From Halobacteriovorax sp. (GTDB lineage Bacteria; Bdellovibrionota; Bacteriovoracia; Bacteriovoracales; Bacteriovoracaceae): DNA of 64,000 nucleotides. Made by a program: the position numbers and the translations under genes. The notes below the pieces were generated by a model that saw only the letters and a program-made list of their open reading frames with translations, was not told the origin of the DNA and did no database searches. The DNA is taken from assembly GCA_002716825.1 (NCBI GenBank), contig PBCC01000001.1, forward strand, positions 13,612-77,611, in the 5' to 3' direction. How positions within the stretch are numbered: the first letter of the stretch is position 1; the number at the start of each line of letters is the position of its first letter. Positions 37,363-64,000 of the stretch are shown in pieces.

Positions 37363-38128
37363 GAAACTTTTTTATGTGAGGAGCGGCGTTTTCAGGCACG
37401 TGATGGGCCAAGCGTTTTGGTTTTTCAATACTCACATCATTACCATACTTTTCAAGATGCTTTGCAAAGCGCTCCATACCGTCTTCGCCCACAACCATAT
37501 CGTCTTCACCACTAATGAGGTGAATTCGCTTTTGAGAGATTGCTAAATTTTCTTTCTCTTCTTTAATCCAAGGAAAAACATTATCGGGCTTTAAGGCGGG
37601 ACTCACGAGTCCTTCTCGAAGCTTTAATGTTGATTTGTAAAACGGTGTATCGAAAATATGAACAACGCCTTGAGGAGGCATGCCAAGGCCCACACCAATG
37701 GCTATTTTTTGAAGTCGACTAAAGCAAGAAAGATCCAATGCTTTAAGAGCGAGCAGTGCTCCTAACGAATGACCACCGAGAATAACGCGCTCTGGAGCAA
37801 AGTTGAGTTCAAGTAGGGCTTGTTCATAGGCTTCTTGAAAAAGCTCATGAGCTGAAGATTTAAAGTCTGAAAAGTTATCAACTTCGCTAAAATTTCCCAA
37901 ATAATGACCTGGGACATCAAATATCATTGTTGGAATCTTTTCTTCAGCGAGGCGTGTGGCCCAGGCCAGTAAAGAACCTTTATGGGATGTATATCCATGA
38001 CACAGTAGGGCAATACGTCCCAGATGCTGCTCTGGCAGGAGCATAAGGCCATGAGTCGGTGTTAGTAATCGTCCGGACCATGTTAATTGAATTTTTTTGA
38101 TCTCAATATTCATGAGCCAAGAATACAT
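37337..38128 (-). CDS. alpha/beta-hydrolase family protein
   Basis: A 263-residue serine hydrolase of the alpha/beta fold. LLCHGYTSHKGSL is the oxyanion region, VILGGHSLGALLALKAL holds the nucleophile Ser, ISGEDDMVVGEDG the acid and LAHHVPEN the His. No signal peptide. Two ATGs are possible, 38128 and 38113 (MNIEIKK); neither has a strong ribosome site. Substrate not predictable; esterase or lysophospholipase-type activity is most common for such proteins. Confidence 0.8.
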   Translation of the reverse strand: MYSWLMNIEIKKIQLTWSGRLLTPTHGLMLLPEQHLGRIALLCHGYTSHKGSLLAWATRLAEEKIPTMIFDVPGHYLGNFSEVDNFSDFKSSAHELFQEAYEQALLELNFAPERVILGGHSLGALLALKALDLSCFSRLQKIAIGVGLGMPPQGVVHIFDTPFYKSTLKLREGLVSPALKPDNVFPWIKEEKENLAISQKRIHLISGEDDMVVGEDGMERFAKHLEKYGNDVSIEKPKRLAHHVPENAAPHIKKFLKDQGWLE

Positions 38129-38169
38129 AGGAACCCAAGAATTTCATAGCCTTCAATGCGTTTATAGCA

Positions 38170-38198
38170 TTGACGTTATTACTCTCATGATTTAATTT
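38170..38198 (+). promoter_or_regulatory. sigma70-type promoter for tRNA-Phe
   Basis: TTGACG, a 17-base spacer and TAATTT lie 20 bases before the tRNA-Phe 5' end, the expected spacing for a tRNA promoter. Confidence 0.65.
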
Positions 38199-38210
38199 TG
38201 TCCTACTTTT

Positions 38211-39875
38211 TTAGTAACGCCCTGATAGCTCAGTTGGTAGAGCAACGGATTGAAAATCCGTGTGTCCGTGGTTCAAATCCGCGTCGGGGCACCATTCTTT
38301 TGAAGAAGTAAAAAAGCCACTTTTCGGAGTGGCTTTTTTTATTTTAGCCAACTCTTTAAATGGTTTTTTCAAATCATATTCAATACTTACTTCGTCCAAG
38401 CTGTTAACGCTTGTGTTTAATTTCTGGTTCGAGAGTACATCTTTAAGGAAGTTTAACTTTTCTTCTTTCGTTCCCTGATTCCACAATGATTCTGCATTGT
38501 TAGCCAGTTCGAGAATGCGATCACTTGTTTCGTAAAATTTGGTTGTAATGAAGGCTTGTCCTTCTTCAAGCAGATCTTCAAACTTTCTTTTTTTAGTTCT
38601 TATGACTTTAACTTGTCGCTTGTAAGTTGCTTCATCAATACCACTAGATGAAAAGAGTTCATACGCTTTGTCTTCTTCTTGCTCTGTTTGCTTGATAGCA
38701 GTCTTGTAGCCTTCGATATTTCTCTTGTGAGCTTGGAGAGTTTTTTCGTGTGCTTTTTTCAAGGCTTTTGATATTGCTTTTGCTAGTTCCACAGAAATAG
38801 AAATTTCATTTACTGGTGCTTTAAATTTTTCAAGTAATTTGTCTTCAGCTATGTTTTTTTGCTTCTCGTTATTTTCTCTATGATATCTCTTTCCATCTGA
38901 GCAGTGATAGTAATGGTAGGTTCTTTCTTCTCCAGTGGTTCGCAACTTTTTTATTTTTGGATCATATAAAATATGACAACCACACAAAGGCTCAGAGCAG
39001 GTTAAAAATCCACTCAAAAGTCCTGTTGGCATTCTTGAATACATTTTCTTGTTTTTGGAGTGTACGGCTCTAAAGTGCTCTCTTGGAACAATTAATTCAT
39101 GCTTACCTTCGTATTCTTTTTCGTCCCAGTCAAAGCTTCCTCCATAGAATTTGTTATCTAGTATTCCTTCAACTCCGGTTTTACTTAAGGTCTTTCCATT
39201 TGGTATCAAATTCTCTTCTCTTACTTTTTTTAAAATATTAAGCATTGACATGTTTTCGACAGCTCTTAATTCATAAATTCGCTGGATCATTTTTACCATT
39301 AGTGGATTAGGGTCAGGTATGATTGTTGATCGACCACGACCGTTTCCTGAGAGTGATGCTTCTCTGTGATTGATGTAACCGTAAGGGGCTCTCCCTGGTA
39401 GCCAGCCTTGACTTGCTTTTTCAATCATTCCTTTTTTTGATTCACGACTAAGATTCATAGAGTGGTATTTAGAGACAGCTGTTTGTATATCATCTGTGAA
39501 GATTTCAGCAGGACTACAATCTTTATCAAAAATACGTTTATCTTTGTAGTAATGAACCTTTAACTTGCCTGCAACTACTAATAATTGAATTTGCTCCTTG
39601 CTTGCAAAGTTTCTTGAAAGCCGGTCAGGCTTTTCAACGATTAGATGAATGGCATTTTTACTTTTGAGTGCTGTTTTAGTTAGGTAATCGAGTACTTTGG
39701 AAAACTTCTTTCGCTCAGAGCTTTTAGATGCCGTCTCAGTAAAACTATAGGTCTCAATGATTTCAAACTTCTTCTCTGTACAATACTGAATCCCATGTTT
39801 TTCTTGAGCAGCAAGACTATATCCGTCGTTTTGTTTAATATCTGATACTCTACAAAATAATACTGCTTGTTCCAT
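38211..39875 (-). CDS. large serine recombinase (integrase of the element)
   Basis: A 554-residue recombinase. Residues 1-150 are the resolvase catalytic domain with Ser11 in LFCRVSDIKQ; 165-270 is the Recombinase DNA-binding domain (GWLPGRAPYGYINH); about 285-340 holds a zinc ribbon (LTCSEPLCGCHI to YYHCSDGK); a coiled coil follows (KALKKAHEKTLQAHKR). The last 27 or so residues (from WCPDADLNHG on) are the antisense reading of tRNA-Phe, so the C-terminus depends on integration. AAGGAG precedes the ATG. It integrates and, with a helper, excises the element. Confidence 0.92.
   Translation of the reverse strand: MEQAVLFCRVSDIKQNDGYSLAAQEKHGIQYCTEKKFEIIETYSFTETASKSSERKKFSKVLDYLTKTALKSKNAIHLIVEKPDRLSRNFASKEQIQLLVVAGKLKVHYYKDKRIFDKDCSPAEIFTDDIQTAVSKYHSMNLSRESKKGMIEKASQGWLPGRAPYGYINHREASLSGNGRGRSTIIPDPNPLMVKMIQRIYELRAVENMSMLNILKKVREENLIPNGKTLSKTGVEGILDNKFYGGSFDWDEKEYEGKHELIVPREHFRAVHSKNKKMYSRMPTGLLSGFLTCSEPLCGCHILYDPKIKKLRTTGEERTYHYYHCSDGKRYHRENNEKQKNIAEDKLLEKFKAPVNEISISVELAKAISKALKKAHEKTLQAHKRNIEGYKTAIKQTEQEEDKAYELFSSSGIDEATYKRQVKVIRTKKRKFEDLLEEGQAFITTKFYETSDRILELANNAESLWNQGTKEEKLNFLKDVLSNQKLNTSVNSLDEVSIEYDLKKPFKELAKIKKATPKSGFFTSSKEWCPDADLNHGHTDFQSVALPTELSGRY
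38219..38294 (+). tRNA. tRNA-Phe (GAA), CCA encoded; element insertion site
   Basis: A complete cloverleaf: acceptor GCCCTGA/TCGGGGC with A discriminator and CCA, anticodon stem CGGAT/ATCCG around TTGAAAA, T arm with GTTCAAA. Anticodon GAA reads phenylalanine. The 3' half borders an integrated element whose recombinase reads into it from the opposite strand, so it serves as the left attachment site. The gene remains intact. Confidence 0.97.
38264..38294. other. probable left attachment site (attL) in tRNA-Phe 3' half
   Basis: The tRNA 3' end is next to a large serine recombinase gene and to DNA with different base use, the usual sign of tRNA-targeted integration. The exact core cannot be set without attR. 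I found no second copy of this tRNA end by eye between 38300 and 64000, so attR probably lies further right. Confidence 0.45.
38311..38340 (+). terminator. rho-independent terminator after tRNA-Phe
   Basis: Ten-pair stem AAAAAGCCAC/GTGGCTTTTT with an eight-base loop and a T run. It would end the tRNA-Phe transcript. It also lies inside the recombinase reading frame on the other strand, which places it either in the element's own end or in host DNA read through. Confidence 0.8.
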
Positions 39876-52438: not shown

Positions 52439-52465
52439 GTAGTTTGGCCGAAAGGCCAATACTAC
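52439..52465. repeat. hairpin repeat, copy 2
   Basis: GTAGTTTGGCC GAAA GGCCAATACTAC, a stem of about ten pairs with a GNRA tetraloop, nearly the same as the copy at 51734. It lies between converging genes and touches the last stop of the methyltransferase frame, so it may also act as a terminator. Confidence 0.7.
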
Positions 52466-53289
52466 AATGGTTTTCTTAGACCTGTAAGAATTTCAAAAGC
52501 GAGCCTTGCCTGATTTGGAACTACTGCATTCCCAAGGGCTTTAATTGAGTCCAATTGGTTGGGAATCCCATGAACCACTCTAGCCACCTCGGGTTCAGTT
52601 TTCCACGTATAGGTCGTGGCATCAATTGTCCGTTTTGACCTATTAATTGAACGTAACGAGCGAGACTTAAGCTCCCTTCTGTCCCTTTTCTGTTTACTTT
52701 TCTCCATGAATTTTTCCTTTTAAAATATGTATCTTGCTCACAAAGAATGGAGCCAGCAGTTGCATCAGTTTTCATCAGTGTTGGATACCGCAAGCATGAA
52801 CCACCTTCGTCTGAGGTGAGAAGCTCCAACTCCGGTAGCAGGTATAACCGTCCATTCAAAACAATAGCCGAGTTGGGTAAACGTTGTGCATACTTCCTTG
52901 AGTGACTTTCCAACGATTCCGTGGACATTTTCCAAGAATACAAATTTGGGTCGTATTTCATTAACAAGTCTTGTGAGCTCAAAGAATAGGATGCTATCTT
53001 TTCCCGCCAGACCTTTTCCCATTGGGTTGTGGGTTGATAGTTGCTGACATGGACTTCCTCCGTAAATGATATCGATGCCTTCTGGAAGGGTATCACTGGA
53101 GAGTGATCTAATATTATCCCAGATTGGTGCATTTGATAGGAGCCCATCAGACATCCTTGAGAGTAATACTGATTGGCAATATTTATCTTTTTCGCAGTAA
53201 GCGATTGTTTCGATGTAAGGTGATAATGCGAGGGTATCACCCCCGATTCCTGAGAACAAACTAAGTCCTCGTAGTTTAGGTAAATCCAC
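52462..53289 (-). pseudogene. C5-cytosine DNA methyltransferase, interrupted by stops
   Basis: A Dcm-type methyltransferase in one frame, cut by TGA (52765-52767), TGA (52738-52740) and TAA (52720-52722). Part A (52765-53289, GTG start) has motif I LSLFSGIGGDTLAL, motif IV GGSPCQQLS with the catalytic Cys, motif VI FVFLENVHGI and motif VIII GASHLRRRWFMLAV. Part B (52462-52707) has ARVVHGIPNQLDSIKALGNA then VVPNQ, motif X. The middle target-recognition part is too short. Activity is probably lost unless a shift joins frames. Confidence 0.75.
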
Positions 53290-53291
53290 AT
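52521..53291 (-). CDS. overlapping alternative-frame ORF, phage DNA-MTase-associated type
   Basis: A 256-codon open frame that overlaps the interrupted methyltransferase in another frame. Its ATG (53291) and the methyltransferase GTG (53289) share one AGGAG ribosome site. Its sequence has pieces I recall from phage proteins next to Dcm genes: DLLMKYDPNLYSWKMS, LNGRLYLLPELELLT, and LNPRWLEWFMGFPTNWTQLK at the end. Since this frame has no stops while the other has three, it may be the one kept. It may instead be a by-product of base use. Confidence 0.45.
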   Translation of the reverse strand: MWIYLNYEDLVCSQESGVIPSHYHLTSKQSLTAKKINIANQYYSQGCLMGSYQMHQSGIILDHSPVIPFQKASISFTEEVHVSNYQPTTQWEKVWREKIASYSLSSQDLLMKYDPNLYSWKMSTESLESHSRKYAQRLPNSAIVLNGRLYLLPELELLTSDEGGSCLRYPTLMKTDATAGSILCEQDTYFKRKNSWRKVNRKGTEGSLSLARYVQLIGQNGQLMPRPIRGKLNPRWLEWFMGFPTNWTQLKPLGMQ

Positions 53292-53325: not shown

Positions 53326-54435
53326 TTAAAAAGGAATGTCATCAAATGAAAAGACATTTACTTCTATCTTAAGAGGAGAAGGTACTATTTCATTTTTAAT
53401 GCATTTGAAGGAACGGTTTCTATACTCTGGTACAGACTTCTTGAGAATTCTAATTGCTCTAGAAATAACTCTACGTTGCTGTTGTTTATTCTTCCAAATA
53501 GTTCCTGGTGGGAATGTTTGGAATAATGGGTAACCGTATTTTGTTTTTGGAGAGTTGACTCCAATAACACGTGAAAACGTACTTGAAGCAAAAGTGTAGC
53601 GTCTCTCATAAGGGTACTTGCAGATAAATTGCTTAAAGTTTTTGAGATATTTATCGATAGTCTTATTGCGAATACTCGTTTTTAAAGCACCATTCTTATT
53701 TCGATAGATGATTAATCCTAGTCGCTCAAGTACCTTGGTGGAATTTGCGTGAGTATTTGATACAACTAAACCTTTTTTGTTATCTAGAGAATGGATTTTT
53801 ATCAAGAGCAAATTATTTAGAAAACTATAGATATTTGTTAACAAAACAATATGACTCATTCTATCTGCATAGAAAACGAAGTCATCAACATAGAGCTGAA
53901 ATTGGTAATTTATTCCAAGTATATGTTTTCCTAAAAAGTTGAATGTCTTTGAAATATTAAATTGAGTTAGTTTAAAGATTGCCTCAGTTGATGACAGTCC
54001 AGGTCTTAAACCGAGAAGTTTTGTCTTTTGAAAAACTTCAGTACTTCGCAATGGAGAGATGTAAAGCACTACTAGCGGAACAAAAGTCTTTATTATTAGC
54101 AAAGGATTAAATAGAAAGTTCCATATAAGTAACAAAAAGATATTCGAAGAATAATAAGCGTCTTTTATGTCTCCATACCCAACCCACTTAAAACTATTAG
54201 TGAATTTGATATCATTAAGACTTTGGTTGAAACGATTACTATGTATTAGTTCAAGACGGTGTTCATTCGCTATGTGATGTCTTATTGCACTTGCGGTTCT
54301 TTTGTCCAATTCTTTATGTTCTTCTTGAGATATGGAGATTTCACGCTTTTTTCCACTAATATTAGGAGTGATAATCTTCACGCTGTCATTATAGGCTTCT
54401 AGGTATTTTCTAATGGTTATAAATGGATTGTTCAT
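53326..54435 (-). CDS. divergent reverse transcriptase
   Basis: A 369-residue protein with reverse transcriptase landmarks: GDIKDAYYSS (residues 88-97) as the first catalytic Asp region, GLRPGLSSTEAI (142-153) in place of the usual PQG segment, and the catalytic YVDDFVFYAD (182-191). RLGLIIYRN (238-246) fits the following hydrophobic motif. It has about 130 residues of basic C-terminal domain. No maturase, integrase or retron VTG motif was seen. It is 36 bases before the methyltransferase remnant on the same strand. Probably a defence-related or unknown-group RT. Confidence 0.8.
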   Translation of the reverse strand: MNNPFITIRKYLEAYNDSVKIITPNISGKKREISISQEEHKELDKRTASAIRHHIANEHRLELIHSNRFNQSLNDIKFTNSFKWVGYGDIKDAYYSSNIFLLLIWNFLFNPLLIIKTFVPLVVLYISPLRSTEVFQKTKLLGLRPGLSSTEAIFKLTQFNISKTFNFLGKHILGINYQFQLYVDDFVFYADRMSHIVLLTNIYSFLNNLLLIKIHSLDNKKGLVVSNTHANSTKVLERLGLIIYRNKNGALKTSIRNKTIDKYLKNFKQFICKYPYERRYTFASSTFSRVIGVNSPKTKYGYPLFQTFPPGTIWKNKQQQRRVISRAIRILKKSVPEYRNRSFKCIKNEIVPSPLKIEVNVFSFDDIPF

Positions 54436-55340: not shown

Positions 55341-55547
55341 ATGGAGTATGTGTTGGAACTAGCTATCAAGGACCGATGGTTGTCTGTAGTTGAAATTGCC
55401 CAATATGTTGGAGTTTCCAAGGAAACTATTTACAGATGGGTAGAGCAAGGAAAAATTCCCTCTCATAAAGTTGGAAAGCAGTGGAAGTTTAAGACTGTAG
55501 AGGTCGATGACTGGATTAGAAGCGGCGGAGCAGAAATTAATAATTAA
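55341..55547 (+). CDS. excisionase-like helix-turn-helix protein
   Basis: A 68-residue MerR/excisionase-type DNA-binding protein: RWLSVVEIAQYVGVSKETIY, RWVEQGKIPSHKVGKQWKF, then VDDWIRSGG. It starts the defence operon and is 18 bases before the Res gene. Such proteins often control phage-defence operons. A GTG at 55350 is an alternative start, with GGAG four bases upstream. Confidence 0.85.
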   Translation: MEYVLELAIKDRWLSVVEIAQYVGVSKETIYRWVEQGKIPSHKVGKQWKFKTVEVDDWIRSGGAEINN

Positions 55548-55565
55548 AAGCACAGGGATGATGCT

Positions 55566-58500
55566 ATGTCAGAATATGATTTTTTTGAAAAACCAATATT
55601 AAATTCACCATATGAATACCCGTCGCGTCACTGGGAAATTGATGAAAGTGGGCAGCCAACACAAAAAGTTATTGAAAAAAGAAGAATTGTTAAATTCATT
55701 ACGCCAATACCTAAACCTAGAAAGAAAAAAGGTGTTGAAGTTCAGACACAGTTTGATTTAGGGGGTGATGAAGCAGGAGGTCTCTCAAGAGATGGTCAAC
55801 TATATGACCCAACTCCCATTATAAATGAATTAAGAACGCATATTGATAAATGGAGAGAAATTTCTGATCCGAATAAGTGGAAAGTGACTCCTGAAACTGC
55901 AAGATTATTGCAACATTGGCGTCATCATAATTTCCAATCGATAAGACCTTTTTTTTGCCAGGTAGAAGCAGTGGAGACAGCAATTTGGCTAACTGAGGTA
56001 GCCCCAACTCTTGGGAAAAAAGGGCAGTCTTTTCTTGATCACCTCGAAAGGGCCAACCTAGATGCTAACCCAGAAATAATGAGACTAGCTTTAAAGCTTG
56101 CAACAGGTGCAGGCAAGACTACCGTTATGGCAATGTTGATTGCATGGCAAACAATAAACTCCGTGAGAAGACCTCAAAGCAAGAAGTTTACTAAAGGATT
56201 TCTAATTGTTGCTCCGGGATTAACGATTAAAGACCGGCTAAGAGTTTTACAACCCAATGACCCTGATAGTTACTTTGAGTCGAGAGAACTAATACCAAAT
56301 GATTTGATCCATGAGCTTAAGAAAGCAAAAATCGTCATCACAAATTATCATGCATTTAAGTTAAGAGAAAAAATTGAACTATCTAAAGGTGGACGCTCTT
56401 TACTTCAGGGACGTGGTGAAGACCTCAACACTCTTGAGACAGAAGGACAAATGCTCCAAAGAGTTATTCCTGAATTGATGGGAATGAAAAATATATTAGT
56501 AATAAATGATGAGGCTCATCACTGTTATAGAGAGAAACCAGATGATCCTGAAGAAGAAAATCTAAAGGGTGATGATCGAAAGGAAGCAGAGAAGAACAAA
56601 GAAGCTGCTCGTCTTTGGATTTCAGGAATAGAGGCTGCCAATAGAAAAATTGGTGTAGCACGAGTAATTGATTTGTCAGCAACGCCATTTTTCCTATCAG
56701 GGTCTGGCTATGCTGAAGGAACCTTATTCCCCTGGACGATGAGTGACTTCTCCCTAATGGATGCAATTGAAAGTGGAATCGTAAAACTTCCACGAGTTCC
56801 TGTTGCTGATAATATTCCTGGTGAGGAAATGCCTAAGTTCAGGGTCCTTTGGGAACATATTGGAAAAAGGATGCCAAAGAAAGCCAGAGGATCTTCTGGT
56901 GACCTTGACCCATTAAGTATTCCAACAGAATTGCAAACAGCGCTATCTGCTTTATATGGTCATTATGAAAAAACATTTAATCTTTGGCAGGAGTCAGGGA
57001 TAAAGGTGCCACCATGCTTTATAGTCGTATGCAATAATACTTCTACTTCAAAGCTTGTTTATGATTATATCTCAGGGTTTAATCGAAAAAATAATGATGG
57101 CTCTGAGCAATTAGAAATGGGGCGTTTAAAACTTTTTCGTAATCATGATGAACATGGAAATCCACTTGCAAGACCAAGAACTCTACTGATTGACTCTCAA
57201 CAATTAGAATCGGGTGACGCTCTTGATAAAAACTTTAGAGATATGGCGAGTGATGAAATTGAGAGATTTAAAAGAGAAATTATTGAAAGAACCGGTGATA
57301 GAAAGCAAGCTGAAAACTTAAATGAAGCTGATCTTCTTCGAGAAGTTATGAATACAGTCGGGCGTGAAGGAAGGCTTGGCGAATCTATTAGATGTGTTGT
57401 TTCTGTTTCGATGTTAACGGAAGGTTGGGATACAAATACGGTTACGCATGTTTTAGGTGTTAGAGCTTTTGGTACTCAATTGCTATGTGAACAAGTAATT
57501 GGTAGGGCCCTTAGAAGGCAATCATATGAATTAAATGAAGATGGAAGATTTAATGTTGAATATGCAGACGTTCTTGGCATTCCATTCGATTTTACAGCAA
57601 AGCCTGTTGTTTCTAAACCTCAGCCTCCTAGAGAAACAATACACGTTAAAGCCATAAGTCCAGAGCGAGATAGTTTAGAGATAACTTTTCCAAGAGTAGC
57701 AGGTTATAGAGTTGAACTTCCTGAGGAAAGGCTCGATGCCGAGTTTAATAAAGATTCGATTCTTGAACTGACTCCAGACTTGGTAGGACCCTCAAAAACA
57801 AATAATGAGGGAATTATTGGAGAGGGAGTAAGTTTAGATCTAGAGCACTTGGATAAAGTTAGGAGCTCTACCTTGTTGTTTAACTTAACTCAAAGGTTGC
57901 TTTATACAAAATGGAGAGACCCTGGAGAAGAACCGAAACTTCATTTATTTGGACAGTTAAAAAGAGTTACTCGGCAATGGCTTGATAGCTGCTTAGTTTG
58001 CAAGGGAGATACATTTCCTGCGCAGCTTATGTATCAAGAGTTGGCTGACATGGCATGCAATAAGATAACCGCAGGTATAACAAGAAAGCTTATTGGTGAA
58101 AAACCAATCAAAGCTATTTTAGATTCATTTAATCCAACAGGCTCTACAATGTCTGTTAGTTTTAATACCTCTAAGACGAATAGATGGGAAACGGACTCTC
58201 GTAAGAGTCATGTAAACTGGGCTATTTTGGACAGTGATTGGGAGGGAGAATTTTGCAGAGTTGTAGAAGGTCACCCCAAAGTCGTGTCATATGTGAAAAA
58301 TCAAAGTATGGGATTTGAAGTTCCCTATCGTTACGGATCTACTGTTCGTAAATATATCCCCGATTTTATAGTTCGTATTGATGATGGTCATGGCGAAGAA
58401 GATCTACTTAACCTAATTGTGGAGATAAAGGGTTACCGGCGTGAAGATGCAAAAGAGAAGAAAACGACAATGGAGCAATACTGGGTTCCCGGTGTGAATA

Positions 58501-58613
58501 ATTCAAATAAGTTTGGGCGGTGGGCTTTCGTGGAATTTAATGAAGTATTCGAGTTTGATAATGAGTTTGATAATTTAATTAGAAAATATACTAAGAATGG
58601 TGAAGAATTATGA
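55566..58613 (+). CDS. type III-like restriction helicase-nuclease (Res)
   Basis: A 1015-residue superfamily 2 helicase. Walker A LATGAGKTTVMA (179-186), DEAH at 315-318, SAT at 371-373, motif V/VI LTEGWDTNTVTHVLG and QVIGRALRRQ near 650. The C-terminal part carries a PD-(D/E)xK nuclease: Pro932-Asp933 in YIPDFIVRI and Glu953-Ile-Lys955 in IVEIKGY. This is the Res type of restriction systems, near the BPTD_3080 family as I recall. It probably moves along DNA and cuts. Its stop overlaps the methyltransferase start by four bases (ATGA). Confidence 0.9.
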   Translation: MSEYDFFEKPILNSPYEYPSRHWEIDESGQPTQKVIEKRRIVKFITPIPKPRKKKGVEVQTQFDLGGDEAGGLSRDGQLYDPTPIINELRTHIDKWREISDPNKWKVTPETARLLQHWRHHNFQSIRPFFCQVEAVETAIWLTEVAPTLGKKGQSFLDHLERANLDANPEIMRLALKLATGAGKTTVMAMLIAWQTINSVRRPQSKKFTKGFLIVAPGLTIKDRLRVLQPNDPDSYFESRELIPNDLIHELKKAKIVITNYHAFKLREKIELSKGGRSLLQGRGEDLNTLETEGQMLQRVIPELMGMKNILVINDEAHHCYREKPDDPEEENLKGDDRKEAEKNKEAARLWISGIEAANRKIGVARVIDLSATPFFLSGSGYAEGTLFPWTMSDFSLMDAIESGIVKLPRVPVADNIPGEEMPKFRVLWEHIGKRMPKKARGSSGDLDPLSIPTELQTALSALYGHYEKTFNLWQESGIKVPPCFIVVCNNTSTSKLVYDYISGFNRKNNDGSEQLEMGRLKLFRNHDEHGNPLARPRTLLIDSQQLESGDALDKNFRDMASDEIERFKREIIERTGDRKQAENLNEADLLREVMNTVGREGRLGESIRCVVSVSMLTEGWDTNTVTHVLGVRAFGTQLLCEQVIGRALRRQSYELNEDGRFNVEYADVLGIPFDFTAKPVVSKPQPPRETIHVKAISPERDSLEITFPRVAGYRVELPEERLDAEFNKDSILELTPDLVGPSKTNNEGIIGEGVSLDLEHLDKVRSSTLLFNLTQRLLYTKWRDPGEEPKLHLFGQLKRVTRQWLDSCLVCKGDTFPAQLMYQELADMACNKITAGITRKLIGEKPIKAILDSFNPTGSTMSVSFNTSKTNRWETDSRKSHVNWAILDSDWEGEFCRVVEGHPKVVSYVKNQSMGFEVPYRYGSTVRKYIPDFIVRIDDGHGEEDLLNLIVEIKGYRREDAKEKKTTMEQYWVPGVNNSNKFGRWAFVEFNEVFEFDNEFDNLIRKYTKNGEEL

Positions 58614-61345
58614 GACAGAAAATTGATAACATTACGCATGAAGATGCGACTAGAAAAAATATCCCAACTGCGGAGCTGCAATCAATAATGCAGAAGGGGG
58701 ATCTAACACCTGTTCAAGTTGCTTATATGCGACGGAATGCCGATCTAGATCCTCAGTTGGTTTGGAGAGGTAAGGATCTTGTAAATTCATCAGATTTAGT
58801 TTCTTATGCACCACCTTTGTACATACAAGAGAAAGTACACCCTAAGGTGTTAATTGATAGTTTGGCGAGATATTCAAACAAAGATATTGGCGAACAGGTT
58901 GATCTATTTGATGACTTCAATGGTTTACCTGATGAAGATGCTAAGACTGAGTTTTACAAGCACGAAGGGCATTGGACAAACCGGATGATTTTAGGTGATG
59001 GCTTGCAAGTGATGGTGTCACTTGCTGAGCGTGAATCCTTAAGAGGAAAGGTTCAGTCTATATTTATCGATCCTCCATATGGAATTAAGTTCAATTCTAA
59101 CTTTCAGTGGTCAACGACGTCTCTGGATGTAAAAGACGGAAAAATGGACCATATTACCCGTGAGCCGGAGCAAGTAAAAGCTTTCAGAGATACATGGAGA
59201 GACGGTATTCATTCATACTTAAGTTATTTACGTGACAGGGTTACAGTCGCCAGAGATCTTCTTCATGACACGGGCTCTATTTTTGTACAGATTGGAGATG
59301 AGAATGTACATCTTGTTAGATCATTACTAGATGAGATATTCGGTAGAGATAGCTTTGTAAGTCAAATCTCTTTTGTTAAGGCTGGTGCACTTGGTGCAAC
59401 GGGGTTACCAAGACGCCTTGATTATGTTCTTTGGTATTCTAAAAATCAAGGGAGTTATAAATATAGAAAATTTCTTATTGAAAAAGATGTATCGGAACGA
59501 GGGGCTTACAATAGAATCGTTAATGACGATTATTCATTAAGACCTCTGTCTAAAGATGAAAAACAAGATCCCAAGTTGATAGATGTTACAAAGCTATGTC
59601 GAACAGTTTCTTTTACAAAGCCAGGACCTGGAGCTCGTTATCCATTAAAGTTCAGGGGAAGTGAGTATCATCCAGGTAGGCGCTGGTGGGGCTTCCCTGA
59701 GGAGAGCGCTCAAAAGGTAATTAGGGCTGGTCGACTAGTACAGACTGGAAAAAGTGTGGAAAGTTTACGATATTGGAATGACTATGCTGCTCAGGAGATT
59801 TCAAACTTGTGGACTGATACTGGCTCAGGTAGCGGTATGAAAAAAGTTTATGTTGTTCAAACGAACGTAGAAGTTATCAAACGCTGCATACTAATGTCTA
59901 CCGACCCCGGAGACCTCGTACTTGATCCAACTTGTGGCTCAGGAACAACAGCATATGTAGCAGAGCAATGGGGGCGAAGATGGATAACAATTGATACTTC
60001 AAGAGTTGCTCTAGCGTTAGCGCGATCTAGAATAATGGGAGCAAAGTTTCCATACTATCTACTTTCTGATAGTGAAGAGGGTGCAAAGAAAGAATCAGAA
60101 TTATCAATGCAGGACTTTCAGCCAAGGAAAACATTTAGAAATATAATGCATGGATTTGTCTATAAAAGGGTTCCTCGTATAACTCTTAAAGCTATTACTC
60201 AGAACCATGAAATTGATAACATATGTGATAAATTTGAACCCTTGATAAAGGCTCGATTAGACTCATTTAACAAATTGAATAAATCTAAATTAAATGAATG
60301 GGAATTGCCCTCTGAGGCTTCGTGTGATTGGTCTTCGAAATCTGTTGAAGAATACAAAGAATTGAAAAAACTTCAAATCCAGAAGCAAAATCAAATTGAT
60401 AATGCAATTAACGCACGTGCAAGCTTTGAACATCTTTATGACCAGCCATACGAGGATAATAGTAGAGTAAGAGTTTCTGGTCCGTTTACTGTAGAGTCTA
60501 TATCTCCACACAAAAGTCTACCTTTAGATGAGAATGATGAAATTATTAATTCTAAAACAAATGGCATTACAAATGGAGAACAGGATTTTGTTTCAATTAT
60601 TATGGAGAATATTAAGAGTGCAGGAGTTCAGCAAGTAGCAAAGAATGACAAGATTGAATTTGAATCAATTGCCCCGTGGCCCGGAGAGTTTATTTGTGCA
60701 GACGGAGTTTATTACGAGGGAGATAAACGTAAAAGGGCTGCGATCTTAATAGGACCAGAGTTTGGAACCTTGTCTCGACCAGATCTAGTTTCAGCAGCTA
60801 GAGAGGCTGCCGAGGCTGACTTTGATGCTCTAATTACATTTGCGTTTAATTATGATGCACACTCTTCTGAGTTTAGTAGGCTTGGACGAATTCCAGTGTT
60901 GAAAGCGAGAATGAACGCTGACTTGCATATGGCAGATGATCTGAAAAATACTGGGAAAGGTAACTTGTTTGTCATATTTGGAGAGCCAGATATAGATATA
61001 ATAGACCTTGGGGAAACGTTGAAGGTTAAAGTAAATGGCGTGGATATATTTGACCCTTCTTCTGGTGAAGTACGTAGCGATAGCGTTGATGGTATAGCTT
61101 GCTGGTTTATAGACACAAATTACAATGAAGAAAGTTTCTTTGTGAGGCACGCATACTTTATTGGTGCGAATGATCCATATGATGCTCTGAAAAAAACTTT
61201 GCGTAATGAGATAAATGAAGAGGCGTGGGAGTCTGTCAACAGTGATATTTCGCAGGAGTTTTACAAACCAACAACAGGCAGGATTGCAGTTAAAGTGATA
61301 AACCACTTAGGCGATGAAGTCATGAAAGTCTACAAGGTTGATTAA
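58610..61345 (+). CDS. type III-like DNA methyltransferase (Mod)
   Basis: A 911-residue beta-class methyltransferase. Motif IV IFIDPPYGIK is at 152-160 and motif I LVLDPTCGSGTTAYVAEQWG near 440, the order found in Mod proteins (adenine or N4-cytosine). The first 120 residues and the last 350 are extra and probably carry target recognition or partner contact. It should protect host sites from the Res partner. The gene overlaps Res by four bases and the next gene by one (TAATG). Confidence 0.9.
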   Translation: MRQKIDNITHEDATRKNIPTAELQSIMQKGDLTPVQVAYMRRNADLDPQLVWRGKDLVNSSDLVSYAPPLYIQEKVHPKVLIDSLARYSNKDIGEQVDLFDDFNGLPDEDAKTEFYKHEGHWTNRMILGDGLQVMVSLAERESLRGKVQSIFIDPPYGIKFNSNFQWSTTSLDVKDGKMDHITREPEQVKAFRDTWRDGIHSYLSYLRDRVTVARDLLHDTGSIFVQIGDENVHLVRSLLDEIFGRDSFVSQISFVKAGALGATGLPRRLDYVLWYSKNQGSYKYRKFLIEKDVSERGAYNRIVNDDYSLRPLSKDEKQDPKLIDVTKLCRTVSFTKPGPGARYPLKFRGSEYHPGRRWWGFPEESAQKVIRAGRLVQTGKSVESLRYWNDYAAQEISNLWTDTGSGSGMKKVYVVQTNVEVIKRCILMSTDPGDLVLDPTCGSGTTAYVAEQWGRRWITIDTSRVALALARSRIMGAKFPYYLLSDSEEGAKKESELSMQDFQPRKTFRNIMHGFVYKRVPRITLKAITQNHEIDNICDKFEPLIKARLDSFNKLNKSKLNEWELPSEASCDWSSKSVEEYKELKKLQIQKQNQIDNAINARASFEHLYDQPYEDNSRVRVSGPFTVESISPHKSLPLDENDEIINSKTNGITNGEQDFVSIIMENIKSAGVQQVAKNDKIEFESIAPWPGEFICADGVYYEGDKRKRAAILIGPEFGTLSRPDLVSAAREAAEADFDALITFAFNYDAHSSEFSRLGRIPVLKARMNADLHMADDLKNTGKGNLFVIFGEPDIDIIDLGETLKVKVNGVDIFDPSSGEVRSDSVDGIACWFIDTNYNEESFFVRHAYFIGANDPYDALKKTLRNEINEEAWESVNSDISQEFYKPTTGRIAVKVINHLGDEVMKVYKVD

Positions 61346-63411
61346 TGGAATTTCGAATTTCAGATACATTTACCTCTAGTCTCGGGAAGTTGACTAACGA
61401 TGAGCAAAAGGCTGTTAAAACAACTTCATTTGACCTTCAGGTGAACCCTGCAAATCCAGGTCTGCAGTTTCATAGAATAGAAAAATCAAAAGATGATAAT
61501 TTTTGGTCAATAAGAGTAAGCAGAGATATTCGAGTTATAGTTCATAAGACTAACTCAAGCTTAATGCTTTGTTATGTTGATCACCATGACAAGGCATATG
61601 AGTGGGCAAGCCGAAGGAAGATTGACAAGCATCCTGTTACGGGGGCTGCACAGCTCGTTGAAGTTAGAGAGTCAATAAAAGAAATTGTAATACCTAGGTA
61701 TATTGAAAAAGAAACTAATGTTACAAAGCCTCCACTATTTGAGTCTTACGATGATAGCTATCTTTTAGGTTTTGGAATCCCTTCTGATTGGCTTGAAGAT
61801 GTAAAACTGGCTCATGAAGATAATTTATTCTCAATTTTAGAACATCTCCCAGCTGAAGCATCTGAGGCATTGCTCGAAATTGCTACAGGTGGGACGCCGC
61901 AAAGCCAAGTGCCCGTAGCTGTTGAAGATCCTTTTGAACATCCAGATGCCCAAAGACGTTTTAAAACGGTAGAAACATCAGAAGAACTACAGAGAGCATT
62001 GGATTACCCTTGGGAGAAATGGACAATCTTTCTTCATCCAAGCCAATCTGATTTAGTTGAGAAAACATATAATGGTCCCGCTCGTATTTCTGGATCAGCA
62101 GGAACTGGAAAGACTATAGTCGCTCTTCATCGCGCAGTTTTTTTAGTTAAAAGCAATGATGAATGCAGGGTTTTATTAACAACATTTTCTGAAACTCTGG
62201 CAAATGCATTAAGAGTCAGGTTAAAAAGGCTTATTGGAAATGAACCAAAACTCGGAGATCGGATTGAGGTTCATTCCATGCGCGATATTGGAGAACGTCT
62301 TTTTAAAAGAGTTAACTCAGATAAACGCGTTCTCTCGCAGCTCGAAGAGAAAGAGCTTGTTTTCTCTATCTCTAACAAAATAGATCATCCATTTAGCAAC
62401 GGATTTATATATAGCGAATGGTCCAATATTGTTGATTCATGGAGAGTTAAGGATTGGGATGATTATAAGAATGTAAAGCGACTAGGAAGAAAAAAAAGAT
62501 TAGCTGAAACTCAACGCAAGATTGTCTGGGGTGTATGCTTTGTAATTATTAAAGCTCTAGAAGATTTAAATGCGATAACCTTATCTGAGATGTATAGCTT
62601 AGTCTCAGATACCGTTGAAGGTTTCAAGAACAAACCGTTTGAATATATTGTTGTAGATGAATGCCAAGACCTAAGTGTGGCCCAGCTAAGGTTTTTAGCC
62701 TCACTTGGAAGAAATGAGACTGATAGCCTCTTTCTCGCTGGTGATTTGGGGCAAAGAATTTTTCAGCAACCATTTTCATGGAAATCATTAGGAATTGATA
62801 TACGGGGAAGATCACAAACACTGAGGGTGAATTACCGTACTTCTCAGGAAATCAGATCTAGAGCTGATCATCTTTTGCCTGATGAGATAACTGATGTCGA
62901 TGGTAATAGTGAATCACGATTAAATACGGTATCGATGTTCAAAGGCGAACCGCCCCTATTGAAAATATTTAATGATGAGAAGTCTGAATCAAGTTTTGTG
63001 AGTGAACAGATAAATGAACTTGTTGCCAAAGGTTATAAACCTCACGAGATCGGTATTTTCGTAAGGACAGTATCACAAAGTATTCGAGCAATAGAGTCCG
63101 TAAACAAGTCGAATTTAAATTTTTCAATACTAGATGAAAGCTTAGATATTAAACCTAATCATCTTTCAATCGGAACAATGCACTTGGCTAAGGGATTAGA
63201 GTTTCGAGCGGTTTTTGTAATGTGTTGTGATGATGAGGTTATACCCTTGCAATCAAGGATTGAGTCAGTTTCAGATGAGTCTGACCTAGAGGAAGTTTAC
63301 AATACAGAACGACACTTACTTTATGTTGCTTGTACTAGGGCAAGAGACTATTTAGCGATTACGGCGACTGATCCAGAGTCGGAGTTCTTAGATGACTTTA
63401 ATATGAAATAA
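61345..63411 (+). CDS. RelE-like domain fused to UvrD-family helicase
   Basis: A 688-residue fusion. Residues 1-92 match the RelE/ParE fold: NPANPGLQFHRIEKS, FWSIRVSRDIRVIVHK, CYVDHHDKAYEWA. From about 228 a superfamily 1 helicase follows: Walker A GSAGTGKT (250-257), IVVDECQDLS, GDLGQRIFQQPFSW, LRVNYRTSQEIRSRA, GTMHLAKGLEF and LYVACTRARDY. The RelE part may sense or bind nucleic acid rather than act as a toxin. It is joined to the methyltransferase gene by TAATG. Confidence 0.9.
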   Translation: MEFRISDTFTSSLGKLTNDEQKAVKTTSFDLQVNPANPGLQFHRIEKSKDDNFWSIRVSRDIRVIVHKTNSSLMLCYVDHHDKAYEWASRRKIDKHPVTGAAQLVEVRESIKEIVIPRYIEKETNVTKPPLFESYDDSYLLGFGIPSDWLEDVKLAHEDNLFSILEHLPAEASEALLEIATGGTPQSQVPVAVEDPFEHPDAQRRFKTVETSEELQRALDYPWEKWTIFLHPSQSDLVEKTYNGPARISGSAGTGKTIVALHRAVFLVKSNDECRVLLTTFSETLANALRVRLKRLIGNEPKLGDRIEVHSMRDIGERLFKRVNSDKRVLSQLEEKELVFSISNKIDHPFSNGFIYSEWSNIVDSWRVKDWDDYKNVKRLGRKKRLAETQRKIVWGVCFVIIKALEDLNAITLSEMYSLVSDTVEGFKNKPFEYIVVDECQDLSVAQLRFLASLGRNETDSLFLAGDLGQRIFQQPFSWKSLGIDIRGRSQTLRVNYRTSQEIRSRADHLLPDEITDVDGNSESRLNTVSMFKGEPPLLKIFNDEKSESSFVSEQINELVAKGYKPHEIGIFVRTVSQSIRAIESVNKSNLNFSILDESLDIKPNHLSIGTMHLAKGLEFRAVFVMCCDDEVIPLQSRIESVSDESDLEEVYNTERHLLYVACTRARDYLAITATDPESEFLDDFNMK

Positions 63412-63442
63412 TTTTTATAAATGCAAAACATGGAAGTTAAAA

Positions 63443-63628
63443 TTGGTAGAAGATAAGAGAGCTAAGAATTTGGAGCTTCTCAAAGAGAAGCTTAAGACAG
63501 AACTCGGAAAAGAGATGTTGACGGAGTATTTAAAGGGAGAAGAAGGCATCCCTTTGAGGGATATTTTAAGTAGCCATTACAATAGTAATCAGGAAGATAA
63601 AAATGAAGTTAAAGACCTTAAGGATTAA
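63443..63628 (+). CDS. small protein before the ATPase, unknown
   Basis: A 61-residue charged helical protein (VEDKRAKNLELLKEKLKTEL). The start is a TTG with GGAAG six to seven bases before it; no ATG is in frame. It lies 31 bases after the helicase and overlaps the next gene by 26 bases, so it is in the operon. No family recognised. Confidence 0.45.
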   Translation: MVEDKRAKNLELLKEKLKTELGKEMLTEYLKGEEGIPLRDILSSHYNSNQEDKNEVKDLKD

Positions 63629-64000
63629 AGGATTTAGGTCTTACGGGTTAGAAGTCCAAGAACTAGAACTTTCAGAGAAGGCAAATTTTATCTGGGGTGG
63701 AAACAGTCAAGGGAAAACAGGCTTCACTGAGGCTATAGAGTTTTTACTAACTGGAAATATTTCAAGAAGAGAAATGCTTTCTAGTAGTAAAGATGAATTT
63801 GCGAACTCATTAAGAAATGCTTTCCTAGACAAAGACGAAGATGTGTTCGTCGAACTAGTTATAGCGTTCAAGGGCAAAGATGTTTCAATCAAAAGATTTT
63901 TACTAGAGGATTATGGAAAGAAGAGTGACTGTAAATCAAAACTACTTATAGATACTATCGAGAGTAGTCAGCGTGATTTGGAAAACTATGGTTTTAAGTT
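63603..64000 (+). CDS. SMC/RecF-like AAA ATPase, 3' end outside window
   Basis: The first 132 residues of a protein cut by the right edge. The start MKLKTLRIKGFRSYGLEVQE is typical of RecF/SMC-type ATPases and Walker A is IWGGNSQGKTGFTEAIEFLL (GGNSQGKT). GGAAG lies before the ATG. It overlaps the small gene by 26 bases. It is the sixth gene of the operon and may be the sensor or DNA-clamp part; a nuclease domain could follow beyond the window. Confidence 0.82.
   Translation, partial: MKLKTLRIKGFRSYGLEVQELELSEKANFIWGGNSQGKTGFTEAIEFLLTGNISRREMLSSSKDEFANSLRNAFLDKDEDVFVELVIAFKGKDVSIKRFLLEDYGKKSDCKSKLLIDTIESSQRDLENYGFK

Follow-up and report, generated by a model that had tools for sequence, protein, structure and literature searches.

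A gene cluster of Halobacteriovorax sp., located on the plus strand at the right end of a stretch of 64,000 nucleotides (nt) of DNA (contig PBCC01000001.1, positions 13,612 to 77,611; hereafter the window), is probably a type III-like restriction operon of three genes which is borne on a mobile island and possesses a docking junction for further defence modules. The three genes encode a helicase-endonuclease (Res), a DNA methyltransferase (Mod) and a fusion of a RelE-like domain with a UvrD-like helicase (RelE-UvrD). The junction, called the dock in the following, lies between Mod and RelE-UvrD; it is empty in the window, and many relatives carry unrelated, predicted defence modules at this place. 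The window derives from contig C1 of a 2.6-Mb draft genome, and coordinates follow its numbering unless a locus label such as L006 is given.

Res (1015 amino acids (aa), core gene 1; 55566..58613), Mod (911 aa, core gene 2; 58610..61345) and RelE-UvrD (688 aa, core gene 3; 61345..63411) are preceded by the gene of a helix-turn-helix (HTH) protein of the HTH_17/excisionase type with 68 aa (55341..55547; Pfam HTH_17, 67 bits). They are followed by a 61-aa open reading frame (ORF; 63443..63628) and by the gene of an SMC/RecF-like ATPase, the N-terminal part of which is contained in the window (63603..64000). All six are encoded on the plus strand. Res and Mod overlap by 4 nt and Mod and RelE-UvrD by 1 nt, the latter at the empty dock (61342..61348, plus strand), and any gap among the six genes comprises at most 31 nt. 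On re-reading the sequence, the coordinates, strand and spacing given in a preliminary description were found to be correct, as was its claim that the operon runs past position 64000: the ATPase gene ends at 65810, and a 91-aa ORF and a CoiA-nuclease-like ORF follow. The type III-like nature of Res and Mod and the RelE-UvrD fusion, both proposed there, were also borne out by the family models, motifs and fold prediction described below.

Res scores 1372 bits against the NCBIfam family NF046055 BPTD_3080 (cut-off 800). Pfam assigns a ResIII domain (38.9 bits) and, slightly under the cut-off of 23.4, RE_endonuc (20.5 bits); a comparison with the PDB by sequence gave no match at E≤0.01. Walker A, DEAH, PD...EIK and motif VI of Res are conserved in 58 aligned rows. 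Mod is recognised by the PADLOC model MTase_III (1183 bits) and by Pfam N6_N4_Mtase, and matches the type III Mod chains 6k0w and 4zcf of the PDB by sequence. Its motif IV (DPPY) stands ahead of motif I, and both DPPYG and DPTCGSGTT are conserved in 67 rows. With DPPY before motif I in Mod, and motifs of a superfamily 2 (SF2) ATPase and a PD-EXK nuclease in Res, the pair has type III features; as judged from these intact motifs, Res is a predicted helicase-nuclease and Mod a predicted N6-adenine-type methyltransferase. Mod is split into at least two frames in L131, L132, L015, L077 and L106, and an ORF of 458 or 504 aa lies between the split parts in L131 and L132.

The UvrD part of the third protein is identified by Pfam (UvrD_C and UvrD-helicase) and is GajB-like according to PADLOC (107 bits). 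The RelE part remains under the Pfam cut-off by sequence (HigB, 20.5 bits, cut-off 27) and gave no PDB match in a single-sequence search, but is clear by its predicted fold. Residues 1-110 are predicted to adopt a RelE fold (predicted local distance difference test (pLDDT) 90.9, predicted template modelling score (pTM) 0.84), and the fold search with them yielded 27 PDB matches at E≤0.001, all of them RelE/YoeB/YafQ-type toxins or H. pylori relatives; the full-length model (pLDDT 72, pTM 0.39) was excluded from this search. No variation is seen at R63, H81, Y85, W87 and R91 in 91 rows, and all superfamily 1 motifs that were sought are kept. The same architecture has been published as ArmD of ARMADA type II, and protection by that system is lost when armD is deleted or its Walker A lysine is changed (K266A; PMC12458937). 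An E. coli homologue is 33% identical to residues 5-682 of the window protein, i.e. over the full length, and its Walker A lysine at position 266 aligns with K256. By analogy, RelE-UvrD may be needed for defence here in a similar way to ArmD in ARMADA. The ARMADA-like RelE-UvrD gene of L012 (also L195 1-16115) is matched in 525 of 5426 E. coli genomes; of the 532 places, 510 are chromosomal. In the two records that were read, the E. coli homologue has a giant helicase scoring as DruE and a large methyltransferase as neighbours. Phage records contain 18 weak matches to RelE-UvrD, none of which spans more than 80% of the protein. On a Qipengyuania plasmid (L016 4787-16757) a RelE-UvrD gene follows the gene of a TM0106 RecB-like nuclease and a further, small gene, and precedes a DUF4011 gene of 1900 aa.

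A profile of 9 RelE-UvrD proteins detected at least 568 relatives in 84,980 genomes, the best 80 of which constitute the loci L018-L097. The whole comparison set (L008-L173, 166 loci) was searched with the window genes by tblastn (E 1e-6), a kind of search which very short ORFs can escape. Res-Mod-RelE/UvrD was found again in genomes of many phyla. Among L018-L097, upstream of RelE-UvrD and on the same strand, Mod is present in 53 and Res in 45 of the 58 loci with at least 6 kb upstream; clustering of the ORFs of 91 loci (L006, L008-L097), many of which are cut by a contig end, placed RelE-UvrD in 87, Mod in 71 and Res in 51. The ATPase, the 61-aa, the 91-aa and the CoiA-like ORFs have no relative in the 166 comparison loci, an HTH homologue occurs in two (L039, L060), and the GmrSD gene at the end of the island (see below) has one weak match. 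The preliminary description had regarded all six genes as one multi-subunit system, the SMC-like ATPase being one of its functional components. Their common strand and their close packing, with overlaps or with gaps not above 31 nt, speak for such an obligate machine, but it is very unlikely given that in the 166 loci no relatives of the ATPase and of the 61-aa and 91-aa ORFs and just two HTH homologues were found, and that a search for the ATPase found none in the other 128 genomes of the class and one partial match in 395 genomes elsewhere. The idea of a multi-subunit unit thus stands for Res, Mod and RelE-UvrD, which stay linked in other genomes, and falls for the HTH protein, the small ORF and the ATPase, which are found unlinked and are taken as local additions outside the three-gene core.

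The reverse test started from Res. Two genome draws were searched for proteins above the family cut-off: the first, of 369 genomes, had them in 23 (26 places), and the second, of 395, in 42 (45 places). All 71 places were read; two of them, L092 and L042, lie in the genomes at the centres of the draws, which had been picked because they carry RelE-UvrD. Three Res subfamilies can be distinguished: I with at least 60% identity and the order Res-Mod, II with 45-48%, and III with 30-40% and mostly the order Mod-Res. RelE-UvrD accompanies subfamily I in 12 of 27 places (10 of 25 without the draw centres), and 9 further places of this subfamily are cut short; the stretches read contain it in none of 8 places of subfamily II, several of them cut short, and in none of 36 of subfamily III. 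A Res tree of 65 rows, made by a quick method and flagged by the tree tool for long branches meeting, groups subfamily I as one clade (SH-aLRT (Shimodaira-Hasegawa-like approximate likelihood ratio test) 100) containing all 13 UvrD rows, i.e. the 12 places and the window. Within subfamily I a label test gave no information, since 500 of 500 shuffles were as low. Furthermore, the distances of Mod and RelE-UvrD are correlated with r 0.80 (n=51; 0 of 2000 permutations as high), those of Res and Mod with 0.58 (n=46) and those of Res and UvrD with 0.69 (n=39). As far as these comparisons of genes go, the predicted ArmD-like RelE-UvrD is the third gene of the operon; its divergence follows that of Mod, and the drawn genomes have it in a single Res clade.

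A number of observations weigh against a fixed unit of three genes. Five of the 58 RelE-UvrD loci are without Mod, and four of these (L024, L026, L043, L044) are without Mod or Res; in L017 Res and Mod are situated behind RelE-UvrD on the opposite strand. RelE-UvrD is absent over at least 9 kb in 4 of the 16 judgeable subfamily I places (L106, L110, L137, L139), or 4 of 14 without the draw centres, and L127 and L171 of the same subfamily have neither a complete Mod nor RelE-UvrD in the 9-10 kb seen. Plasmids carry Res in 40 and Mod in 41 records; RelE-UvrD has 113, and the 40 of these that were listed include only 10 of the Res records. The RelE-UvrD of the Qipengyuania plasmid, which is 44% identical, is paired with the RecB-like nuclease and the DUF4011 gene instead, and common descent of entire loci may account for part of the co-divergence. 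The explanation that the operon is an ordinary two-gene type III restriction system and RelE-UvrD a passenger in a defence island can point to the absence of RelE-UvrD from the stretches read of subfamilies II and III (0 of 44) and from 4 of 16 informative places of subfamily I, and to the other partners of the family in L016 and in the ARMADA-like loci. We regard this explanation as unlikely in view of the restriction of RelE-UvrD to one Res clade, its last position behind Res, Mod and the dock cargo, its co-divergence with Mod (r 0.80) and the requirement for the homologue ArmD in ARMADA defence (PMC12458937). Another plasmid, of Methylomagnum (L099 12697-18183), contains Res and Mod with genes for a CBASS-type phospholipase and a nucleotidyltransferase behind them; the stretch that was read shows no RelE-UvrD.

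The dock was studied in 76 loci with Mod and RelE-UvrD on the same strand: the window, 6 plasmid loci, 61 of L018-L097 and 8 loci of the draws. Since L018-L097 were chosen by closeness to the window RelE-UvrD, the dock proportions hold for that set only. The junction is at least 150 bp wide in 60 loci and narrower in 16, the window among them. ORFs of at least 100 aa, 107 proteins in total, lie between Mod and RelE-UvrD in 56 of the 76 loci; among the UvrD-positive places of the draws, a dock ORF is present in 7 of 12 (6 of 10 without the centres). The first cargo gene begins between -20 and +60 bp from Mod in 46 of 52 loci. PADLOC names IetA/IetS, SIR2/HerA and Dsr1 in the dock, with scores of 1374 bits for Hachiman HamB, 866 for the reverse transcriptase RT_UG5, 533 for the Lamassu-type ATPase LmuB and 637 for PDC-S06; weaker are a HEC-06-like (237 bits) and a PD-Lambda-5-like protein (170 bits). 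This tally covers 90 of the 107 dock proteins, 17 having been dropped (near-duplicates, families already represented and one scar ORF), and its names rest on 25 of 363 families, among the matches listed. Judged by these family assignments, unrelated putative defence modules occupy the Mod/RelE-UvrD junction in many relatives. A common cargo family is shared by nearest RelE-UvrD relatives in 4 of 53 cases, two of the four being one duplicate pair.

A second slot between Res and Mod carries cargo in 35 of 82 loci. A DUF4062-HATPase protein of about 490 aa, known from 13 loci, sits in this slot in 10 (L025, L035, L063, L074, L095, L105, L132, L133, L139, L144). The Res-Mod slot of L109 yielded a SoFic protein, the cluster of which is also present in the dock of L037. 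No scar of the kind described next was found in the Res-Mod slot, a single match in L008 being the frame-shifted start of its own Mod.

Remnants of the core genes in the dock, termed scars, were sought with 85 segment models of 60 residues along the three core genes, in six frames and at E≤0.01. Contig-end truncations, frame-shifted resident genes, L133 (UvrD start at the contig end) and L171 (Mod start only) were not counted. Six of the 85 segments gave matches: the four N-terminal ones of UvrD, reaching to about residue 116, and the two C-terminal ones of Mod. Every match lies on the sense strand. UvrD-start scars occur in nine loci (L018, L021, L030, L046, L068 (weak), L079, L107, L108, L131) and Mod-end scars in five (L021, L038, L058, L079, L131). 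The scar-bearing loci number 11: 8 of the 76 docks and, in addition, L030, L108 and L131, which do not count among the 76 because a core gene is truncated or located on a different stretch. In 8 of 9 cases the UvrD-start scar sets in 3-64 bp past the preceding cargo ORF, and in 5 of 5 the Mod-end scar stops 5-35 bp ahead of the next cargo ORF. The three loci with both (L021, L079, L131) have the UvrD start followed by the Mod end; in L079 the one continues in frame into the other, and in L021 the two abut in different frames. Examples are Hachiman, scar and a 334-aa gene in L021, a module of the LmuB cluster, scar and a 334-aa gene in L030, and a PDC-S15-like protein (51 bits), scar and IetAS in L038. 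By position and similarity, these putative UvrD-start and Mod-end fragments mark the borders between modules, and each module so bordered seems once to have been the guest adjoining Mod or RelE-UvrD before another was added. The alternative that the scars are chance matches or pseudogene debris without bearing on the arrival of cargo can point to the shortness of some (16-27 residues) and the weakness of L068 (E 0.0066), L058 (1.4e-4) and the Mod end of L021 (3.3e-5). It is nevertheless highly improbable, as only the dock-facing gene ends were found and always on the sense strand, the order of the two types is fixed in 3 of 3 loci, the scars are placed at ORF borders, and they are fused in one frame in L079 and abut in different frames in L021.

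Whether the dock is a true cassette dock is evenly balanced in our estimate. In such a dock, modules bounded by the Mod 3' end and the UvrD 5' end would circulate as units, be taken in through homologous recombination, perhaps as circles or via tandem duplication, pile up and leave UvrD-start/Mod-end scars. The evidence has its other side here too. The window possesses neither dock cargo nor a scar, and the best 80 of at least 568 relatives supply 61 of the 76 docks. Loci with a common cargo family have slightly closer UvrD (0.704 vs 0.650; 1 of 2000 permutations as high, one pair being a duplicate), and cargo thus partly travels with the core. The UvrD scar of L107 begins 551 bp from the preceding cargo ORF. 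An unmasked re-scan of 58 docks matched inner Mod segments in L010 and the Mod end in L107, which read as the own resident Mod of these loci, in L010 as a frame-shifted rest. Finally, the scars tell the order and the borders of modules, not which enzyme or DNA form moved.

The three-gene operon with its dock would work as follows. Mod would mark the host sites, and Res, guided by Mod, would translocate along unmodified phage DNA and cut it. RelE-UvrD could load on the cut or single-stranded product and drive ATP-dependent unwinding, by which restriction would become irreversible, and the RelE domain might bind or cut RNA met on the unwound DNA. Modules would arrive or stack by homologous recombination via Mod-end and UvrD-start flanks, each newcomer leaving a flank copy behind. 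The assembly of defence islands is mostly inferred from co-location; here, footprints in some loci give order and borders. With the same host operon in many phyla and different defences at one junction, island growth becomes testable by a recombination assay, and the cassette dock, if true, would be a readable record of how a defence operon grows.

The genes around the core differ from it in distribution. The HTH protein scores 78.0 bits against NCBIfam MADS1 (cut-off 80) and is probably a local regulator outside the conserved core; from this near-cut-off score, a small first-gene regulator of such kind may be common to unlike defence operons. The ATPase, with 735 aa in full (L006 8263-10470), matches SMC_N (49.5 bits), LmuB (64 bits, strongest in the first 256 aa), GajA (35 bits) and mad3 (28 bits), and Pfam gave no TOPRIM match. 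In the class it was found in its own genome only among 129, as was Res above its family cut-off; a draw of 395 genomes of another phylum contained one partial match, plasmids two weak partial ones, and none was confirmed in viral contigs. The 61-aa and 91-aa ORFs match no family. Behind the 91-aa ORF follows, on the strand of the operon, a gene for a CoiA-nuclease-like protein of 254 aa (CoiA_nuc; L006 10829-11593). The ATPase, the small ORFs and this nuclease are regarded as separate cargo behind the core.

The contig has a counterpart in a same-genus genome as far as 38348 and then once more from about 68887 on, and the two ends meet at one place in that genome; the operon is thus carried by an island of about 30.6 kb which this genome lacks. 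The left border is a tRNA-Phe gene (38219..38294, plus strand), where low GC begins, with a large serine recombinase beside it (38211..39875, minus strand; PHROG 95 integrase, E 1.9e-47). At the right end a GmrSD-type HEC-05 gene is located on the strand opposite to the operon (L006 11603-13354; HEC-05/GmrSD_N 647 bits). No exact repeat of at least 15 nt is shared by 37900-38500 (the tRNA-Phe region) and everything from 50000 on, and the comparison with the same-genus genome revealed a 55-bp imperfect match at the right end. Directly upstream of the operon, on the minus strand, lies a 369-aa ORF (53326-54435) with a YVDDF motif which we take to be reverse-transcriptase-like; it matches no PADLOC or PHROG family and no PDB or phage entry. 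Next to it, at 52462-53291 (minus strand), pieces in different frames look like one broken gene of a C5-type DNA methyltransferase, a 174-aa piece of which has a PHROG methyltransferase match.

As the preliminary description had stated, the operon as a whole matches no named system. MADS is an operon of eight mad genes. The window resembles it in the HTH protein near the MADS1 cut-off and in the weak mad3 score of the ATPase, whereas the core genes have no match to other mad models among the matches listed; an identity with MADS was rejected, the operon genes being Res, Mod and RelE-UvrD. Gabija, suggested by the GajB-like UvrD part, was rejected as well for want of a GajA with TOPRIM, the best GajA score being 35 bits. 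Likeness to Lamassu or Gabija is seen in the weakly LmuB-like (64 bits) and GajA-like (35 bits) ATPase and the GajB-like UvrD (107 bits); no LmuA or LmuC match was found beside the ATPase, and the LmuB score falls on its N-terminal third. The neighbouring CoiA_nuc protein could be an effector. In polymorphic toxin systems (contact-dependent inhibition (CDI) and Rhs), displaced orphan toxin modules keep core-gene fragments at their edge; the scars are alike in this respect, but here the modules are whole defence systems within an operon.

Type III restriction-modification systems (EcoP15I-like; BPTD_3080) share with the window the Mod with DPPY before motif I and the Res with SF2 helicase and PD-EXK motifs. 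They differ by the third core gene RelE-UvrD, found in one clade, and by a Res without PDB sequence match (E≤0.01). ARMADA type II (ArmABCD) likewise combines a methyltransferase, helicases and RelE-UvrD, the latter with a full-length homologue of 33% identity, but has, as published, a BrxHII-like ArmA, a PglX-like ArmB and a YprA-like ArmC where the window has Res and a type III-like Mod (PMC12458937). The supposition of an unmatched system therefore has to be narrowed, as the RelE-UvrD architecture itself was already published as ArmD (PMC12458937). A decayed or rearranged ARMADA type II in which ArmA, ArmB and ArmC were replaced would account for the full-length 33% identity to the E. coli ArmD-type protein, and is extremely improbable: the ORFs listed for 36000-64000 and 11 kb beyond include no giant YprA-like helicase, the core motifs are present, and Res-Mod-RelE/UvrD recurs across many phyla. 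In eight ARMADA-like loci, named by gene length and annotation and including two near-identical E. coli copies, the gene preceding RelE-UvrD is at most 35 bp away in 8 of 8, so that there is no dock. RelE-UvrD is a component that links ARMADA and type III restriction.

A preprint by Payne from 2024 reportedly describes 'guilt-by-embedding', i.e. defences embedded in other defence operons. Among published cases are DarTG2 with the RptR regulator in type I restriction-modification loci (PMC12255303), candidates embedded in Hma (PMC12988326), nucleases inside BREX operons (PMC12839542) and PrrC inside a type IC locus (PMC12707154). Embedded defences and the ArmD architecture were therefore already known, whereas the dock at the Mod/RelE-UvrD junction and its scars are new; a literature search, in which preprints were barely covered, gave no report of a type III-like host, a RelE-UvrD core gene or border scars. 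Modules between host defence genes are found in the relatives, the window dock being empty, and the RptR case shares, as described, a small regulator as the first gene (PMC12255303). The loci presented here differ from these embedded defences in their type III-like host and in module borders marked by scars of the Mod end and the UvrD start.

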